A stretch of DNA of 5,369 nt from Clostridia bacterium (lineage in GTDB: Bacteria > Bacillota > Clostridia > Oscillospirales > Butyricicoccaceae), in contig JAFQVZ010000100.1 in assembly GCA_017407765.1 (NCBI GenBank), forward strand, positions 1 to 5,369, read 5' to 3'. Below are positions 1 to 5,369 of the stretch, piece after piece. The notes beneath the pieces are model-generated. The model was not told where the DNA came from. It saw nothing but the letters and a program-made list of their open reading frames with translations, and did not search any database. Each line of letters starts with the position of its first letter. The stretch's first letter is position 1. The translations under genes were made by a program, and so were the position numbers.

Positions 1-318
1 AAGCTCGACGTTTTCGACAACATTGAGCTTGGGTATGAGGTTATACTGCTGAAAGATAATGCCGATAAACCGGTTTCTGATGGATGCCTGCATATCGTCG
101 TCCATAGTGGAAACATCTATGCCGTTAAGTGTATAGGTCCCCGATGTGGGAACGTCAAGGCATCCGATTATATTCATGCAGGTCGACTTACCCGAACCCG
201 ACTGGCCGACGATTGCGACAAACTCGCCCTCTTCAATATTAATGCCGACCCCGTCAAGAGCGCGCACAACACTGTCGCCCATATGATAGAGCTTATATAT
301 ATCCCTGAGTTCGATCAT
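1..318 (-). CDS. ABC transporter ATP-binding protein, MacB/LolD type (N-terminal 106 residues, cut by window edge)
   Basis: The reading frame opens at ATG 318 and runs off the left edge, giving 106 residues of a protein that is usually about 220 to 250 long. It should be the cytoplasmic ATPase that powers an exporter. Seen directly: MIELRDIYKLYHMGD at the N-terminus, Walker A GQSGSGKST at residues 38-46, the stretch MNIIGCLDVPTSG just after it, which is typical of the MacB/LolD/YknY group, and the Q-loop FQQYNLIP starting at residue 89. The signature motif, Walker B and H-loop lie outside the window. The start is supported by a purine-rich AAGGTGGAG (322-330) that overlaps the adaptor's stop codon. 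Only 10 bases separate the two genes, so they are surely co-transcribed and probably translationally coupled. By analogy with YknXYZ and MacAB, a FtsX-like permease should follow. The transported substrate (peptide, antibiotic or lipid) cannot be inferred. Confidence 0.93.
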   Translation of the reverse strand, partial: MIELRDIYKLYHMGDSVVRALDGVGINIEEGEFVAIVGQSGSGKSTCMNIIGCLDVPTSGTYTLNGIDVSTMDDDMQASIRNRFIGIIFQQYNLIPKLNVVENVEL

Positions 319-328
319 AGGCTCCACC

Positions 329-1981
329 TTAGTCAGCTTCGGAGGCCTGGCCCATAGGACTGTTGTTTATCATCGTTTCAAGCAGCGATGTGGTGGCTGT
401 GCTTACGCCTACCTCTTCTCCCTCGCTGATGCCGCCGATGACCTCAATATAGTCTTCATCCGAGCGGCCTACTTCGACCTCTACGCTGCGGTAGCCCTCG
501 GGAACATTATTCTTGATATCGCCCGCACTCTCGGGATCGACTACAAAGACGGTGTTTCCGCGGTTTACGGCGCTGATGGGAACTGTGAGAACATCGATAG
601 CCTCTTCAATAACGATATCGGCTGTTACATTCATGCCGGGCAGAAGCTCGCCATATTCTTCGATGATGACACGGACCGGATATGTGGTAACGCCCGACGC
701 GACCGTGCCGTTTATGCCAATGCGGTCGATATACCCGGTGAAGGTTTCGCCGTCAACTGCATCGGCCTCAATATATACCTTCTGTCCGATCTCTACATCG
801 CGGATATAAAGCTCGTCAACATTGAGTGTGAGGGTAAGATAAGACATATCATAGATGACTGCCATGGGTGCTACTGCCGATGTGCTGTCGAGAGTATCGC
901 CTGCTTTATAGTTCTTTACGACCACTGTGCCCGATATAGGAGCCTTAATGGTGTAGTTTTCAAGAATATTACGGGCATTTTCCAGCGAAAGCTCAGAAGA
1001 ACGAACGCCGAGCTGAGCCTGCTCGATCTGACGCTGAGCGGCATCACTGTCGATAGCCATAAGCGCCTGATCGCGCGATACCCGATCGCCTTCCGAAACA
1101 TATACCGCCGTAACTGTTCCGTTTGTGCCTGCCATAACCATCGAAGCGGCGTTGGATGCAAACATGCCCGAAGAGGCACAGGAGATGCCGTTTACAACAG
1201 CAGTCGCCTGAGCTCCGTCGGCAATACCGCCGGGGTTGGAGACCGTGATCTTCACATCACAGGTGAGGATGCCGCCGATGCCGGCCTTAACAGCGCCCGA
1301 AACACTGTTCACAATGCCCTGCACAACTTCGCCTGTGTCGGTCATGGTGACCTGTGCCGACATTCCTGCCGAAAGCCGGGATGCGTCCAGCTGGTGGAAG
1401 GGAACGGTGAGCTCCATATTATCTGTATCACGGATCTCGGCAAGCATCGTGCCGGCCGTGACCTCATCGCCCTTCTTTACATAGAGCTTCATAACTCTGC
1501 CGGGCGCTGCTGCCTTAGGCTCAAGGCCGTCAACGGCATCAATAACGCTGTCGTAAGACAGACCGGCATTCCTGAGAGCGATCTCAGCCTGCTCGATAGA
1601 TCTTTCGGCATCGGAGCTGTCGATGCTGAACAGAAGATCATCCTTATTTACATAGTCGCCTTCTTCAAAGTCGGCCGTAAGTATATCGCCTTGAACCAGA
1701 CCGATGATATTATACGAATCCGCAGGCTGAAGCGCGCCGCTGCCGCCGACCGTAACGGTGATATCGCGTCTCTCTGCGGCATAATTGCGATAACCGCTGT
1801 CCTTATTTGCCCCTTCAATGATCATGGGGCGCACAACGAACCAAAACAGCAGCGCCGCTATGCCGAGCACCACCGCAATGATGCGTTTGTTCTTCTTTCT
1901 CTTCTCTCCTGCCACCATTCTGTCAAGCTTGGCATTTGCAGCCGCATCCTTTGAAAGCTGCGGATCTGTGATCTGAGCCAT
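329..1981 (-). CDS. HlyD/MacA-family membrane-anchored adaptor (periplasmic-adaptor-like) of an ABC exporter, with duplicated core
   Basis: This 550-residue protein has a basic cytoplasmic N-terminus (KRKKNKR, residues 27-33), one membrane segment at about 34-52, and an extracellular remainder. The extracellular part contains two successive adaptor cores. Core 1 has a lipoyl half at about 93-121 (ADFEEGDYVNKDDLLFSID), a short helix at 123-145, a second lipoyl half at 156-184 (KAAAPGRVMKLYVKKGDEV) and a beta-barrel-like stretch at 189-265. Core 2 repeats this with a lipoyl half at 281-312 (GTVTAVYVSEGDRVSRDQ), a helix at 314-342 (QRQIEQAQLGVRSSELSLEN), the other half at 344-365 (TIKAPISGTVVVKNYKAGD) and a barrel at 381-460. 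A membrane-proximal domain follows (461-535). Family adaptors are usually 350 to 450 residues with a single core, so this one is long. A strong ribosome binding site, AAAGGAGA (1989-1996), sits 7 bases before the ATG. The adjacent ABC ATPase argues for an ABC exporter rather than an RND pump. The substrate is unknown. Confidence 0.92.
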   Translation of the reverse strand: MAQITDPQLSKDAAANAKLDRMVAGEKRKKNKRIIAVVLGIAALLFWFVVRPMIIEGANKDSGYRNYAAERRDITVTVGGSGALQPADSYNIIGLVQGDILTADFEEGDYVNKDDLLFSIDSSDAERSIEQAEIALRNAGLSYDSVIDAVDGLEPKAAAPGRVMKLYVKKGDEVTAGTMLAEIRDTDNMELTVPFHQLDASRLSAGMSAQVTMTDTGEVVQGIVNSVSGAVKAGIGGILTCDVKITVSNPGGIADGAQATAVVNGISCASSGMFASNAASMVMAGTNGTVTAVYVSEGDRVSRDQALMAIDSDAAQRQIEQAQLGVRSSELSLENARNILENYTIKAPISGTVVVKNYKAGDTLDSTSAVAPMAVIYDMSYLTLTLNVDELYIRDVEIGQKVYIEADAVDGETFTGYIDRIGINGTVASGVTTYPVRVIIEEYGELLPGMNVTADIVIEEAIDVLTVPISAVNRGNTVFVVDPESAGDIKNNVPEGYRSVEVEVGRSDEDYIEVIGGISEGEEVGVSTATTSLLETMINNSPMGQASEAD

Positions 1982-2019
1982 CAGTCATTCTCCTTTAACC
2001 ATTGTTCTTATAATTATAT

Positions 2020-2047
2020 ATTTTACGACCAAAATACAAAAGGTCAA
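2020..2047 (-). promoter_or_regulatory. Predicted sigma-A-type promoter of the adaptor/ABC exporter operon
   Basis: Read on the minus strand, TTGACC (2042-2047, five of six to the -35 consensus) is followed after 16 bases by TAAAAT (2020-2025, five of six to the -10 consensus). Transcription would start near 2013, leaving a leader of about 30 bases before the adaptor ATG at 1981, with its ribosome binding site at 1989-1996. The site lies after the terminator of the upstream operon, as expected for an independent transcription unit. It is a prediction by eye; the surrounding DNA is AT-rich, so chance matches are possible. Confidence 0.55.
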
Positions 2048-2059
2048 CCACCGTCTGAT

Positions 2060-2072
2060 AAAGTTTAACTTT
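2060..2072. promoter_or_regulatory. Short perfect dyad upstream of the adaptor-operon promoter, possible operator
   Basis: AAAGTT-T-AACTTT is a perfect 6-bp inverted repeat around a single base, lying 13 bases upstream of the predicted -35 box. Its size and position would suit a regulator binding just upstream of RNA polymerase. No regulator gene for this exporter is present in the window, and an AT-rich dyad this short can occur by chance. Confidence 0.25.
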
Positions 2073-2109
2073 TTATTACAATTATGCCGGACCACAATCC
2101 AATATAACA

Positions 2110-2141
2110 AAAAAGGATGACCGCCAAGGGTCATCCTTTTT
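2110..2141 (-). terminator. Intrinsic terminator closing the double-cubane reductase operon
   Basis: AAAAAGGATGACC (2110-2122) pairs perfectly with GGTCATCCTTTTT (2129-2141), giving a 13-bp stem with a 6-base loop. On the minus strand the stem is followed by a run of T (complement of 2109-2114). It starts 17 bases after the activator gene's stop codon at 2159-2161. Because both flanks are A/T runs, the hairpin could in principle act in both directions, but no plus-strand gene needs it. It insulates the downstream exporter operon. Confidence 0.9.
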
Positions 2142-2158
2142 AACGCAAACTATTTAAT

Positions 2159-2929
2159 TTACTTCTTTTCGGCTCTCTTCATAAAATCATAACCGATAAC
2201 TGCCGCGCCGATGGCTCCGCAGAGCTGGCTCTGGGGATGAGTTACAACGGGCTTGTCCAGCGCCTCTTCAAGGCGCGAGCGGAAGCTCTCGTATCTTGCC
2301 AGGCCGCCGCTGAAGAAAACCTTTCCGTTCATGGGCAGCTTGCTTGCAAAGATCGCTGTACGACGGCAGATGGAGCGGATAACGCCAAGGGCAATATCGC
2401 CGCGCTCTGCGCCGTTTGCCAGCATACTGATGATCTCGCTTTCTGCAAAAACCGTACACATGCTGGTGATCTCGATCTGCTCCTTCTGCTCGAAGCTGTC
2501 GAGCTCGTCGCGGTCGCATTCAAGGATACGGCACATCATTTCTACAAAACGGCCTGTGCCGGCAGCGCACTTATCGTTCATCAGGAAGTCCTGAACATTG
2601 CCCTTGCCGTCAAGCAGAACAGCCTTGCTGTCCTGACCGCCGATATCGACAAGGCCGGAAACGCCGCCGCCAAGGAAGTATGCGCCTCTGGCATGGCAGG
2701 TGATCTCTGTGACCTTCTTGTTTGCCTCAGGCAGCAGCTCGCGGCCGTAGCCTGTTGTGACGATATAGCCTACCTCTTCGCTGTAGAGCTTATCGTATAT
2801 TTCCTTCATTCTCTGGGCAGGACGCGCGCCCGTGGGAACGATCATTGTTTCAAGGATCTTCTCACCGTCATAGAGGGCGCCTTTAACTGTCGTCGAACCG
2901 CAGTCGATACCTAAACTCAGCTTTGCCAT
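2159..2929 (-). CDS. ATP-dependent [4Fe-4S] activator/reductase of a 2-hydroxyacyl-CoA dehydratase-superfamily protein (HgdC/YjiL/DCCP-reductase type)
   Basis: This 256-residue cytoplasmic protein has an ASKHA-fold ATPase signature: phosphate-binding GIDCGSTTVKG at residues 7-17, DIGGQDSKAVLLDG at 95-108, and a C-terminal FFSGGLARYESF (205-216) plus CGAIGAA (237-243). The two cysteines expected to hold one [4Fe-4S] cluster at the homodimer interface are present as NDKCAAGTGRF (C121) and TSMCTVFAESE (C158). In this family (HgdC, FldI, BadF/BadG relatives, YjiL), ATP binding and hydrolysis push an electron from the cluster to the partner enzyme at very low potential. Length matches the family (about 255 to 260). 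The gene begins 3 bases after the stop of the partner gene and has only a weak ribosome binding site, so translation is probably coupled. Its partner is therefore the upstream 382-residue protein. An electron donor such as ferredoxin or flavodoxin is not encoded here. Confidence 0.93.
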   Translation of the reverse strand: MAKLSLGIDCGSTTVKGALYDGEKILETMIVPTGARPAQRMKEIYDKLYSEEVGYIVTTGYGRELLPEANKKVTEITCHARGAYFLGGGVSGLVDIGGQDSKAVLLDGKGNVQDFLMNDKCAAGTGRFVEMMCRILECDRDELDSFEQKEQIEITSMCTVFAESEIISMLANGAERGDIALGVIRSICRRTAIFASKLPMNGKVFFSGGLARYESFRSRLEEALDKPVVTHPQSQLCGAIGAAVIGYDFMKRAEKK

Positions 2930-2932
2930 GGC

Positions 2933-4081
2933 TTAGAGCATCTCGATGAAGGCTGCAACTCGTGTGTTGACCTGGCCTGCATCTGTGGACGAATAGTCTG
3001 TTTCCATGTACATATAGGGGATATTATGCTTCTCTGTAACGTGCTTCTTGATCTTGTAGGACTCGACATTGAAGGTATGGCAAGCCTGCAGAACGACCTC
3101 GATAACGCCGTCGATCTTATACTCTTCAAGCAGACGGTCGAACAGGTCGAGGCGGCCGGGGTTGGGCGACATGCAGGAGCAGGGGATATTGATATATCTC
3201 TTTGCCAGAGCCTCGTATACGTCGGGATTTGTCTCGTCTACCAGCTCGTCTACCGATCTTGCACCGCCGCAGTTCTCATAGCATACGACTACGCCGCCGT
3301 TTTCTTCGATAGCGCCAACGACCTTGGCTGTCGAACATCCGATGGGCGAACCTGTGAGCAGGATGCGCTTGCGGCCTTCATACTTCTTGGGATCATATTC
3401 GTCCTTGATCTTCTGTGTCAGAGCTCTTACATCAGCTGTTGCCTTGGGCATGTCGAAACGGAACTGAACACCGTCGAGGACCTTATGCATTTCCATACCG
3501 CCCATGGGAGGGGGATCCATCTTCTGCAGGCCATAGAACTCCTTAAGAGCCTTGCGCTGCTCGTTTACGATATGGATAGACTTGCGGATATCATCTTCTG
3601 TGATCGTTGTGTCAAACTGCTCTTCGAGAACGCACTTAAAGCGCTTGATCTCTTCCTTGAAGAGCTGTGTGCCCATCTCGCTCTTCTTGTTGGGGAGCTC
3701 GAGGACATGAACATTCTTGAACTCTGCCAGCATCTCATACATCTTCTTCTTGCCGTCGCATGTTGTCTCGCCGACGATAAGATCGGAGAAATAGAAGAAG
3801 GGGCACTTGTCGGTCTTGGCAAAGCCATAGCTCGACTTGATAAGGGGGCAAAGGTTGCGGGGCAGATCCTGCTCGGCATCGGGAATTGTTTCGCCTGTCT
3901 TGGAGCAGAGGCCGACCATTACGGCACCCATAGCCATGGGGATCTCCTTGGGGAGATATGTGCAGAAGCCACCGACAACGGGAACGCCCTTCTGCTTCAG
4001 TTCATACATGGGAATGAAAGAGTTCTTGCGCTGTTCGGAAAACTCTTCAAAAATAGCGGGAAGTTCTTTAACGAGTTCCAT
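2933..4081 (-). CDS. Double-cubane-cluster-type anaerobic reductase (2-hydroxyacyl-CoA dehydratase D-like superfamily, YjiM/DCCP group)
   Basis: This 382-residue cytoplasmic protein belongs to the HgdB/FldC/BcrC superfamily of iron-sulfur reductases and dehydratases. Diagnostic stretches include DLPRNLCPLIKSSYGFA (72-88), FFYFSDLIVGETTCDGKKK (95-113), LLTGSPIGCS (241-250) and the C-terminal VLQACHTFNVESYKIK (330-345). Twelve cysteines are present. C40, C78, C108, C301, C303 and C334 lie in the motifs that look most conserved and are candidates for cluster ligands, which is an inference. True 2-hydroxyacyl-CoA dehydratases and benzoyl-CoA reductases need two different subunits, whereas here a single subunit is paired directly with an activator. 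That organisation and the sizes (382 + 256) match the double-cubane cluster protein described from Carboxydothermus and the E. coli YjiM/YjiL pair. Characterised DCCP carries an [Fe8S9] cluster and reduces small molecules such as acetylene in vitro; the physiological substrate is not established. The start has AAGGAG at 4093-4098. Confidence 0.87.
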   Translation of the reverse strand: MELVKELPAIFEEFSEQRKNSFIPMYELKQKGVPVVGGFCTYLPKEIPMAMGAVMVGLCSKTGETIPDAEQDLPRNLCPLIKSSYGFAKTDKCPFFYFSDLIVGETTCDGKKKMYEMLAEFKNVHVLELPNKKSEMGTQLFKEEIKRFKCVLEEQFDTTITEDDIRKSIHIVNEQRKALKEFYGLQKMDPPPMGGMEMHKVLDGVQFRFDMPKATADVRALTQKIKDEYDPKKYEGRKRILLTGSPIGCSTAKVVGAIEENGGVVVCYENCGGARSVDELVDETNPDVYEALAKRYINIPCSCMSPNPGRLDLFDRLLEEYKIDGVIEVVLQACHTFNVESYKIKKHVTEKHNIPYMYMETDYSSTDAGQVNTRVAAFIEML

Positions 4082-4107
4082 ATTAAAACACTCTCCTTAA
4101 TATATTA

Positions 4108-4146
4108 GGGGGTTAATTTCCATCCCTTTAATTTTAGAATACCCCC
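4108..4146. promoter_or_regulatory. GGGGGT / ACCCCC inverted repeat bracketing the -10 region, possible operator
   Basis: GGGGGT (4108-4113) and its exact reverse complement ACCCCC (4141-4146) stand out in an AT-rich gap and lie on either side of the predicted -10 box, 27 bases apart. A further ATACCC at 4173-4178 repeats the ATACCC at 4140-4145 in the same orientation, 33 bases away. Similar C/G-tract half-sites are known in CsoR operators, but there the C tract precedes the G tract with a short gap, so this is not a canonical CsoR site. It could bind another regulator, or pair at RNA level only if transcription starts further upstream. Confidence 0.3.
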
Positions 4147-4159
4147 ATAAATAACGCAA
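4131..4159 (-). promoter_or_regulatory. Predicted promoter of the double-cubane reductase operon
   Basis: On the minus strand, TTGCGT (4154-4159) is separated by exactly 17 bases from TAAAAT (4131-4136), five of six to the -10 consensus. The -35 match is weak (three of six), which would suit an activated or otherwise regulated promoter. Transcription would begin near 4124, giving a leader of about 43 bases with the ribosome binding site at 4093-4098. The csoR terminator lies upstream, so an internal promoter is needed here. Confidence 0.5.
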
Positions 4160-4186
4160 ATAGTGTTTTCAGATACCCTTTTTACA

Positions 4187-4207
4187 CTTATAGCTTTTTT
4201 CTATAAG
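4187..4207. repeat. 7-bp perfect inverted repeat in the csoR/reductase intergenic region
   Basis: CTTATAG (4187-4193) and CTATAAG (4201-4207) form a perfect dyad around a 7-base T-rich centre. It lies about 28 bases upstream of the predicted -35 box of the reductase operon and about 20 bases past the csoR terminator. It may be a binding site for a dimeric regulator, or a weak secondary hairpin. The function is unknown. Confidence 0.3.
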
Positions 4208-4208
4208 C

Positions 4209-4232
4209 GCATTAAAATGTGCATTAAAAATG
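4209..4232. repeat. Tandem near-repeat of GCATTAAAA(A)TG at the csoR terminator tail
   Basis: GCATTAAAATG (4209-4219) and GCATTAAAAATG (4221-4232) are two adjacent copies with a 12-base period that differ by one A. The second copy supplies the T-run of the csoR terminator when read on the minus strand. It probably arose by local slippage, and no function is evident. Confidence 0.4.
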
Positions 4233-4257
4233 CCCGAAGAGGCGATCCTCTTCGGGC
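4226..4257 (-). terminator. Intrinsic terminator of the copA-csoR operon
   Basis: GCCCGAAGAGG (4232-4242) pairs perfectly with CCTCTTCGGGC (4247-4257), an 11-bp GC-rich stem with a 4-base loop. On the minus strand it is followed after one base by TTTTT (complement of 4226-4230). It begins 4 bases after the csoR stop codon, so it ends the copper operon cleanly and separates it from the reductase operon. Confidence 0.93.
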
Positions 4258-4261
4258 GGTT

Positions 4262-4522
4262 TCACATAAGCTTTTCAAGAAGCATAAGGATCTCGTCGAT
4301 CTTTTCTTCTCTTTCACTATCACTTGATGCCTCGCGGACGCATCCGCTGACATGGGCAGAGATGATCTCGCGGTTGGCTCGCTTGAGCACGCTCTGAGCC
4401 GCCATGATCTGGCTCGAGATATCGAGGCAGTAACGGTCTTCATCGATCATCTTTATAACGCCGTCAATCTGACCCGAAGCTGTTTTAAGCAGCCTCAGGA
4501 CCTTTGCTTTATCGGCTCTCAC
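4262..4522 (-). CDS. csoR: CsoR-family copper-sensing transcriptional repressor
   Basis: This 86-residue all-helical DNA-binding repressor should release its operator when it binds Cu(I). The CsoR fingerprint is complete: KVLRLLKTASGQIDGVIKM near the N-terminus, then the metal ligands C32 (EDRYCLDIS), H57 and C61 (SAHVSGCVREA). The C-H-C set is that of Cu(I) sensors rather than the formaldehyde (FrmR) or nickel (RcnR) sensors, which carry additional or different N-terminal ligands. Length matches the family (about 85 to 100). The start is a GTG whose first bases overlap the copA stop as GTGA. No good ribosome binding site precedes it, so translation is probably coupled to copA. A later start would remove the conserved first helix. 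Being in the same transcript as copA, it most likely autoregulates the operon through an operator upstream of the window. Confidence 0.94.
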   Translation of the reverse strand: MRADKAKVLRLLKTASGQIDGVIKMIDEDRYCLDISSQIMAAQSVLKRANREIISAHVSGCVREASSDSEREEKIDEILMLLEKLM

Positions 4523-5369
4523 GCGATAGATGTAACTTCGTAGCCGGCATCGACGACTGCCTTTGTCAAAGCTTCATCGGATACATCAGCTGTCAGTGTG
4601 ACCTCAGCTGTGCCTGCTTCAAGATTAACCTTGGCCTCTACACCCTCAAGAGCATTGAGGGCCTTTTCTACGCGGCCGCTGCAGTGAGGGCACATCATGC
4701 CTTCGATCTTCATTGTCTTTGTCATTGTTTCTTCTCCTTCATCATTTGTATTTTCAACAATTTCTGTTACCTGAGTTATTTCGGCTGCCTTTTCTTCAAT
4801 AACCGGCTTCGCTTCGGGCCTGAAGAAATTGAGCCTCAGAGCATTGGAAACAACGCATACCGACGAGAGGCTCATGGCTGCGGCACCGATCATGGGGCTC
4901 AGCTTGATGCCGAAGGGCCCCCACAGCAGGCCGGCTGCCAGAGGAATGCCTACCGAGTTATAGAAGAAGGCCCAGAAGAGGTTCTGCTTGATGTTTGTAA
5001 TTACCGAACGGCTGAGCCTATAGGCAGTTACGGCATCCAGCAGGTCGCTCTTCATCAGAACAACATCGGCGCTCTCTATAGCGATATCGGTTCCGGCGCC
5101 GATCGCGATGCCGACGTCGGCACGGACAAGGGCAGGAGCATCATTGATGCCGTCACCAACCATGGCTACCTTCTTGCCCTGCTCCTGAAGGGAGCGGATC
5201 TCCTTTTCTTTATCGCCGGGAAGGACCTCGGCAATGGCATGGGTGATGCCCAGCTGACGTCCGATCGCCTCGGCTGTAACACGGTTGTCACCGGTCAGCA
5301 TGACCACCTCAAGGCCAAGCTCCTTCATGCGGTCGATGGCCATACGCGATGTAGGCTTGACGACATCGG
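4519..5369 (-). CDS. copA: Copper-exporting P1B-type ATPase, C-terminal 282 residues, with a fused C-terminal HMA domain
   Basis: The frame is open through the right edge; the first complete codon is 5365-5367 and the visible part starts DVVKPTSRMAIDRMKEL. Residue numbers here count from that codon. Visible are the nucleotide-domain motif MLTGDN (23-28), the hinge motif VGDGINDAPAL (70-80), and the last two membrane helices with Cu(I) ligand signatures YN (136-137, in FFYNSVGIPLAAG) and MSLSS (165-169). These place it in the P1B-1 Cu(I)/Ag(I) export group. The phosphorylated DKTGT and the membrane CPC motif are off the window. An acidic linker (about 183-214) leads to a complete HMA domain with GMMCPHC (223-229) and the C-terminal AGYEVTSIA. 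HMA domains of this family are usually N-terminal, so a C-terminal one is a notable though known variant. There is no stop or frameshift between ATPase and HMA domain. It acts in the cytoplasmic membrane to expel copper. Confidence 0.95.
   Translation of the reverse strand, partial: DVVKPTSRMAIDRMKELGLEVVMLTGDNRVTAEAIGRQLGITHAIAEVLPGDKEKEIRSLQEQGKKVAMVGDGINDAPALVRADVGIAIGAGTDIAIESADVVLMKSDLLDAVTAYRLSRSVITNIKQNLFWAFFYNSVGIPLAAGLLWGPFGIKLSPMIGAAAMSLSSVCVVSNALRLNFFRPEAKPVIEEKAAEITQVTEIVENTNDEGEETMTKTMKIEGMMCPHCSGRVEKALNALEGVEAKVNLEAGTAEVTLTADVSDEALTKAVVDAGYEVTSIA
4723..4739 (-). promoter_or_regulatory. Candidate internal ribosome binding site and ATG inside copA, for a free CopZ-like chaperone
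   Basis: Within the linker of copA, AAGGAG (4734-4739) lies 8 bases before an in-frame ATG (4723-4725). Starting there would yield a 68-residue protein, MTKTMKIEGMMCPHC and onward to the copA stop, which is the size of a normal CopZ/HMA copper chaperone. The spacing and the strength of the site are as good as those of genuine starts in this window. The encoded linker residues here are Glu/Gly-rich (DEGEET), so the motif could also be a coding coincidence. Confidence 0.45.

Follow-up and report, generated by a model that had tools for sequence, protein, structure and literature searches.

The gene pair at 2159..4081 of a 5,369-base stretch of DNA from Clostridia bacterium (contig JAFQVZ010000100.1; the whole stretch is referred to as the window) raises the question of what an ATP-dependent double-cubane reductase does where no pathway gene lies beside it. 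The window is an entire contig (C322; genomes, contigs and loci are numbered G, C and L) of a 1.76-Mb draft genome that is 83% complete, and the pair encodes a 382-residue double-cubane cluster protein (DCCP) and its 256-residue activase. The initial annotation had left the role of the pair simply open, given the lack of pathway genes nearby; this is not fully supported, as a link between the family and selenium use emerges at the genome level. In the current analysis the pair is read, with a probability of roughly 60%, as a stand-alone reductase of the YjiM/YjiL type with its predicted ATP-driven electron donor, which would help to supply selenium either at the step of selenophosphate synthetase (SelD) or before it.

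The 382-residue protein has been assigned to PF06050 (1.8e-119) and scores 521.1 bits with the DCCP model NF040772, for which the cut-off is 350. The open reading frames (ORFs) confirm what had been read from them before, namely 12 cysteines and both motifs in this subunit and, 3 bases away, a 256-residue activator with C121 and C158. The cysteines are at positions 40, 59, 78, 93, 108, 150, 249, 267, 271, 301, 303 and 334. C40, C78, C108, C271, C301 and C334 align to Cys36/73/100/263/293/327 of BzdN, the columns of its [8Fe-9S] ligands as listed in PMC11971306, and are the predicted [8Fe-9S] ligands of the window protein. With all six residues present, the alignment favours the double cluster proposed earlier over one [4Fe-4S] cluster; the monomer model, which carries no clusters, shows the DCCP fold on comparison with PDB structures.

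In the tree the protein groups with DCCP/YjiM and apart from HadC, BzdN and MbdN (support 100/98 and 100/97), these three standing in for the dehydratases and reductases with HgdB, FldC and BcrC left out. It is thus not placed in a dehydratase clade as represented here; the drawn root is the midpoint, and G044_L022 and other rows are long-branched and of uncertain placement. The HadC and HadB models give 115.8 of 700 and 29.3 of 750, below their equivalog cut-offs, and the BzdN, BcrC and BcrB models (71 of 453.8, 35.3 of 421.15 and 25.8 of 486.55) do not reach theirs either. The homology to YjiM/YjiL proposed in the initial annotation is supported by NF040772, the ligand columns, the tree and the structure comparison, and we assign the pair with high confidence to the double-cubane systems of YjiM type.

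YjiM/YjiL of E. coli (b4335/b4334) belong to the same clade (100/98), are 56% identical and have the same DCCP-activase gene order; the Se/S-carrier gene ytiA (b4715, PF11823), which lies directly 3' of yjiL in E. coli, is absent from the window. The DCCP/DCCP-R of Carboxydothermus hydrogenoformans (6eno, 7yyl, 7yzm) has the fold, the six cluster cysteines and the partner ATPase in common with the window pair but is found in a separate clade of the tree, with 37% identity to the window protein. The latter lacks the N-terminal extension of the C. hydrogenoformans protein (382 versus 421 residues), and some positions characteristic of each clade differ as well, such as M304 versus F344. BzdN (8s02) is the subunit that carries the double-cubane cluster in class I benzoyl-CoA reductase, where BzdO is its partner and a CoA ester the substrate (PMC11971306); it has the same six ligands and fold as the window protein but is 22% identical to it and lies outside the clade. 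The 2-hydroxyacyl-CoA dehydratases HadBC/HgdAB share the superfamily and the activase type with the window pair but are comprised of two different subunits, and HadC, also outside the window clade, has no cysteine in the C40 and C271 columns.

The 256-residue protein belongs to PF01869 (3.7e-50) and scores 247 bits with TIGR00241 (cut-off 125). In the alignment with the activator structures 4eht, 1hux and 7yyl its C121 and C158 match cysteines, and they are presumably, as in HgdC, the ligands of an intersubunit [4Fe-4S] cluster; the protein is predicted to be an ATPase with such a cluster. The activase gene lies directly 3' of the DCCP gene in eight of the nine loci of the window's closest clade. 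The exception is a window ortholog (L038:9150-11245) with no activase ORF between the DCCP and the fusion protein, nor is one listed on its contig, G003:C9.

Family scans of the other genes of the window agree with the earlier statement that no second dehydratase subunit, CoA-transferase or acyl-CoA dehydrogenase adjoins the pair. The own genome encodes two further HGD-D proteins, both above the double-cubane cut-off (three in total). Among 18 DCCP-bearing genomes checked for HGD-D number (the own genome and 17 relatives), six of 98-100% completeness (G001, G002, G009, G015, G030 and G034) encode exactly one HGD-D protein, and it is of YjiM type in G001, G002, G015 and G030. A second, different subunit is therefore not required, and the partner protein that was to be looked for elsewhere is dispensable in these six of the 18 genomes; the DCCP is probably a homodimer like its solved relatives. 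It is very improbable that the window protein relies on a partner encoded elsewhere to form a two-subunit enzyme, whether a 2-hydroxyacyl-CoA dehydratase or a benzoyl-CoA reductase. The common superfamily and fold favour such an arrangement, as do tandem HGD-D genes in some relatives, but the dehydratase and reductase models stay far under their cut-offs, the six double-cubane ligands are all in place and four genomes have the YjiM-type protein as their only HGD-D protein.

The tandem genes are found in G006:C7:50790-53025, G004:C113 and G005:C226, where a full double-cubane protein lies beside a shorter HGD-D protein (371-residue frame, below the NF040772 cut-off). They suggest that some relatives may be heterodimers and speak against a uniform stand-alone picture.

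The tie to selenium has been identified by counting over genomes. Among 243 genomes of the host's class (completeness of at least 90% requested, own genome included) a double-cubane protein over cut-off is encoded in 31 and SelD over cut-off in 59. SelD is present in all 31 genomes with a DCCP and in 28 of the 212 without (Fisher p 3.7e-23). As control served the 50 genomes with an NF040772 match at E 0.001 or better and none over cut-off, some of these matches being short and weak; 13 of them encode SelD, a fraction close to the overall 59/243, so that presence of the superfamily alone does not explain the tie. The association persists within families (Cochran-Mantel-Haenszel chi2 8.97 with correction; the strata leave out nine genomes without any SelD match, whose family was not assigned). 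Family f48, for instance, has both proteins in one genome and neither in eight, and family f74 has both in three and neither in one.

A search of 60 relatives (own genome included; five genomes common to this set and the class sample) gave SelD in 17/18 genomes with and 10/42 without a DCCP. The sole relative with a DCCP and no SelD, G032, has selA and therefore probably uses selenium as well. In genomes where all typed double-cubane proteins are of YjiM type, SelD is found in 7/7 in the class sample and 7/7 among the relatives. Class loci and relatives were typed by their best BLAST hit to tree-typed references; over-cut-off matches without a fetched locus (two in G004, two in G005, one in G021 and the own one on C35, which is in the tree) remained untyped.

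The gene selD itself lies on the same strand and 0.3-0.5 kb from a YjiM-type DCCP in G118, G201 and G269; in G264 the DCCP is of another type, and selD lies beyond its activase at a distance of about 1.1 kb. The order in G118 is yqeC, yqeB, yedF, selD, DCCP, activase and a mocA-like gene (MocA below cut-off). Judged by position, G201 has the same arrangement; further genes come after it that resemble molybdenum-hydroxylase small subunits but score below the cut-offs. In G281 a MocA-like gene, YqeB, a Sec-lyase-like gene of the cysteine-desulfurase family, YedF and a Se/S carrier, identified with a custom hidden Markov model (HMM), precede the DCCP-activase pair. Altogether seven of nine YjiM-type loci of the class sample (G118, G137, G138, G159, G201, G269 and G281) have such selenium-related genes within about 5 kb; G215 and G282 have none within that distance.

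The operons of G118 and G201, and the presence of yqeB, yedF and the Sec-lyase-like gene in G281, would also suit a role of the pair, alongside YqeB and YqeC, in maturing the labile selenium cofactor that selenium-dependent molybdenum hydroxylases (SDMH) contain. For the window this is improbable, since yqeB was not found in any of the seven genomes of its genus, four of them 98% complete, and selA is present in six of the seven; in the class, 13 of the 31 genomes with a DCCP have no yqeB over cut-off. A role confined to SDMH was rejected for the window on the lack of yqeB in the genus.

The selenium use of the host was read from its own genome and its relatives, not from the window. In the genus, selD occurs with an in-frame TGA in 7/7 genomes, and the counts for selA and yqeB given above make selenocysteine its trait of the two tested. 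The scan for selA, yqeB and selD covered 26 chosen genomes, 18 with and eight without a DCCP. Of the 18, twelve have selA without yqeB, four (G009, G015, G016 and G034) have yqeB without selA, and G004 and G020 have neither over cut-off; of the four with yqeB only, G015 alone has the YjiM type. A DCCP thus occurs with either selenium trait, and the common point would be the supply of selenium at or before SelD.

By analogy with the solved relatives, the activase dimer would accept electrons from a low-potential donor, and ATP hydrolysis would raise them onto the [8Fe-9S] cluster in each subunit of the DCCP homodimer, which in turn would reduce a small molecule. The genomic tie suggests that this molecule may be a selenium species: selenium bound to a DUF3343/YedF carrier protein, or else a selenium compound in methylated or oxidised form. 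The system would in this way maintain selenium as selenide for SelD. That the pair itself makes the selenide used by SelD is put forward tentatively, and so is the broader proposal that the low-potential reductases still missing from the selenium metabolism of prokaryotes are the double-cubane reductases, whose ATP-driven, nitrogenase-like cluster would convert scavenged or carrier-bound selenium to selenide for SelD.

The neighbourhoods of related loci are varied. We fetched 80 loci and grouped their genes; one representative per group was labelled by Pfam/NCBIfam and the rest by custom HMMs, and the gene calls come from a simple codon-score script that may miss genes. The close-relative set comprises 58 YjiM-type loci, window included. 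Oligopeptide ABC systems occur at some of them, e.g. L041, L048 and L051, and MtaA-like methyltransferases at nine, mostly with a corrinoid protein. In ten the DCCP is fused to a PucR-type helix-turn-helix (HTH), with an M20 hydrolase (ten), an SBP_bac_3 transporter (nine) and a PatB C-S lyase (six) nearby. The copper/exporter synteny of the window's genus accounts for six loci, and five (L075, L077, L081, L086 and L093) have a Se/S carrier (PF11823) and a class V aminotransferase; the remaining loci have none of these neighbour types. A methyl-selenium reading of the MtaA-like neighbourhoods fits a role in the supply of selenium at or before SelD but does not prove it; ClMlp2 is a catalyst of methylcobalamin:selenide methyl transfer (PMC10418091).

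Several observations weigh against a role in selenium supply. Scans of the window genes revealed no selenium gene beside the pair, and in the fetched flanks of its eight closest orthologs, where the scan did not include SelD, a Se/S carrier, YedF and a class V aminotransferase are all lacking. In the six genomes of the genus that have both, selD and the window ortholog lie on different contigs. Only the five of 58 YjiM-type loci named above have a Se/S carrier inside the fetched flanks, the three operons of selD with a YjiM-type DCCP all come from one genus (g95), and the ortholog L038 has no adjoining activase. As 28 of the 59 class genomes with SelD encode no DCCP, the latter is not needed for SelD as such. 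Among the 26 scanned genomes a DCCP is present in 12/12 with selA but in 4/8 with yqeB, and this tighter tie to selA speaks against the nature of the trait further down being immaterial. A common lifestyle could add to the tie between DCCP and SelD.

Taken further, the tie to SelD may be a by-product of lifestyle throughout, the pair being a stand-alone double-cubane reductase whose substrate is unrelated to selenium, such as a small nitrogen or carbon compound. This agrees with the window, where no selenium gene adjoins the pair, and with YjiM-type genes lying next to oligopeptide ABC systems, to the M20 hydrolase with a polar amino-acid ABC transporter and PatB lyase, or to MtaA-like methyltransferases. 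Against it, SelD is present in 31/31 genomes with a DCCP and in 13/50 of those that have below-cut-off matches alone, and selD adjoins the DCCP in four genomes (YjiM type in G118, G201 and G269, another type in G264). We regard it as doubtful, although it is the most serious alternative to a role in selenium supply.

The window encodes six genes, all on the minus strand, with the following features.

1..327, minus strand: first part of an ABC ATPase, a neighbour that is truncated where the contig stops (PF00005).
329..1981, minus strand: RND/MacA-like membrane-fusion protein, a neighbour and likely a separate unit (TIGR01730).
2110..2141, minus strand: terminator-like hairpin 3' of the activase, 13 pairs with a T-rich tail (terminator scan).
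2159..2929, minus strand: DCCP reductase / acyl-CoA dehydratase activase of YjiL type, 256 residues, ATG start (TIGR00241; alignment to 4eht, 1hux and 7yyl_E).
2930..2932, minus strand: 3-base spacer separating the DCCP and activase genes (ORF coordinates).
2933..4081, minus strand: DCCP of YjiM type, 382 residues, ATG start (NF040772, ligand columns, tree, model versus PDB).
4082..4231, minus strand: leader of the pair, likely to carry the promoter (promoter and Rfam scans).
4232..4257, minus strand: terminator-like hairpin 3' of CsoR and ahead of the pair, 11 pairs with a T-rich tail (terminator scan).
4262..4522, minus strand: CsoR-type metal-sensing repressor, a neighbour and likely a separate unit (PF02583).
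4519..5369, minus strand: last part of a copper P-type ATPase, a neighbour that is truncated where the contig stops and has a CopZ-like HMA tail (family scans).

The two hairpins, one after CsoR and one after the activase, make the pair look like a transcription unit of its own; both strands of the stretch 1900-4700 together have seven terminator-like sites, whereas shuffled sequences average 2.6. On the minus strand of the leader no sigma-70-like match is listed, and no Rfam match to a known RNA or riboswitch reaches the gathering score there, two weak hits being judged chance. In an alignment of nine upstream stretches only the ribosome-binding region and AT-rich sequence are seen to be shared, and no conserved operator was seen.

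With CopA/CsoR upstream and a MacA-like exporter downstream, the pair could belong to a locus for copper or metal stress, and this setting is kept in 6/6 loci of the window's genus (the window and L035-L039). The possibility is a slight one, as one hairpin closes the CsoR unit ahead of the pair and another closes the pair itself, and as orthologs of 85-86% identity from another genus have, within contig reach, no copper neighbours upstream (L033, L034) and no exporter downstream (L064). A copper-linked role was accordingly rejected, the CopA/CsoR neighbours being a genus-level synteny that is separated from the pair by a hairpin and is absent upstream of L033 and L034.

The function of archetypal DCCPs was called unknown in 2025 (PMC11971306), and the proteins have been described as 'provisionally linked to selenium metabolism' (PMC10418091). 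HGD-type subunits and activases also appear among the STRING neighbours of YedE, YedF, LysR-like and DUF3343 proteins (PMC5322559). The selenium link of DCCP is therefore already in print provisionally, and the addition made here is the counts against SelD; the literature search, which did not reach the original DCCP papers or the DCCP review, found no count of DCCP and SelD co-occurrence. A look-up of the terms dehydratase, hydroxyglutaryl and activase found none of them in the selenium papers PMC2276186, PMC9312934, PMC5029168 and PMC2432076, nor in the passages searched of the 2024 C. difficile SDMH paper (PMC11448449). PMC10134865 and PMC12176620 have the name of the cluster in their reference lists only. 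For E. coli yjiM and yjiL, a table in the YgfI section of PMC9068703 gives negative values, and in C. maritimus CO lowers both DCCP genes (PMC7306483).

The double-cubane cluster is one of the few biological clusters comparable to that of nitrogenase. If the tie to SelD reflects function, straightforward selenium assays could test the role of DCCP in E. coli K-12; in this strain yjiM, yjiL and ytiA are adjacent. Should the supply of selenide prove true, the archetypal [8Fe-9S] proteins, among them YjiM/YjiL of E. coli, would have a physiological role for the first time.

The further double-cubane proteins of the own genome have neighbourhoods of their own. A paralog of the C. hydrogenoformans type is encoded on C35 (L162, G000:C35, 3285-8309) between a Se/S carrier and a Sec-lyase-like gene of the cysteine-desulfurase family. 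A second Se/S carrier lies beyond the Sec-lyase-like gene and divergent MtaA-like methyltransferases are near, an arrangement that resembles published methyl-selenium clusters. The third double-cubane protein (L002, G000:C355) is found at a contig end behind ORFs reading as oligopeptide ABC ATPases; a similar order, with an SBP_bac_5 gene, is seen in L041, L048 and L051.

The ten fusions of DCCP with a C-terminal PucR-type HTH are 713-737 residues long (L078, L079, L080, L083, L085 and L087-L091, e.g. L085:8001-10142). The HTH was confirmed by Pfam in two of them, and all ten group together and are of similar length. No activase was found in the fetched flanks of these loci, and the fusion is perhaps a double-cubane-based sensor.

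Double-cubane proteins also lie beside SaoX-type substrate-binding proteins and ArsP-type permeases in L109, L110, L106 and L108, labelled by NCBIfam and Pfam in L109 and by custom HMMs in the other three. In C. clostridioforme (L057:3-4474) the pair is encoded downstream of ORFs that read, by sequence, as xanthine-dehydrogenase-type subunits and a purine permease.

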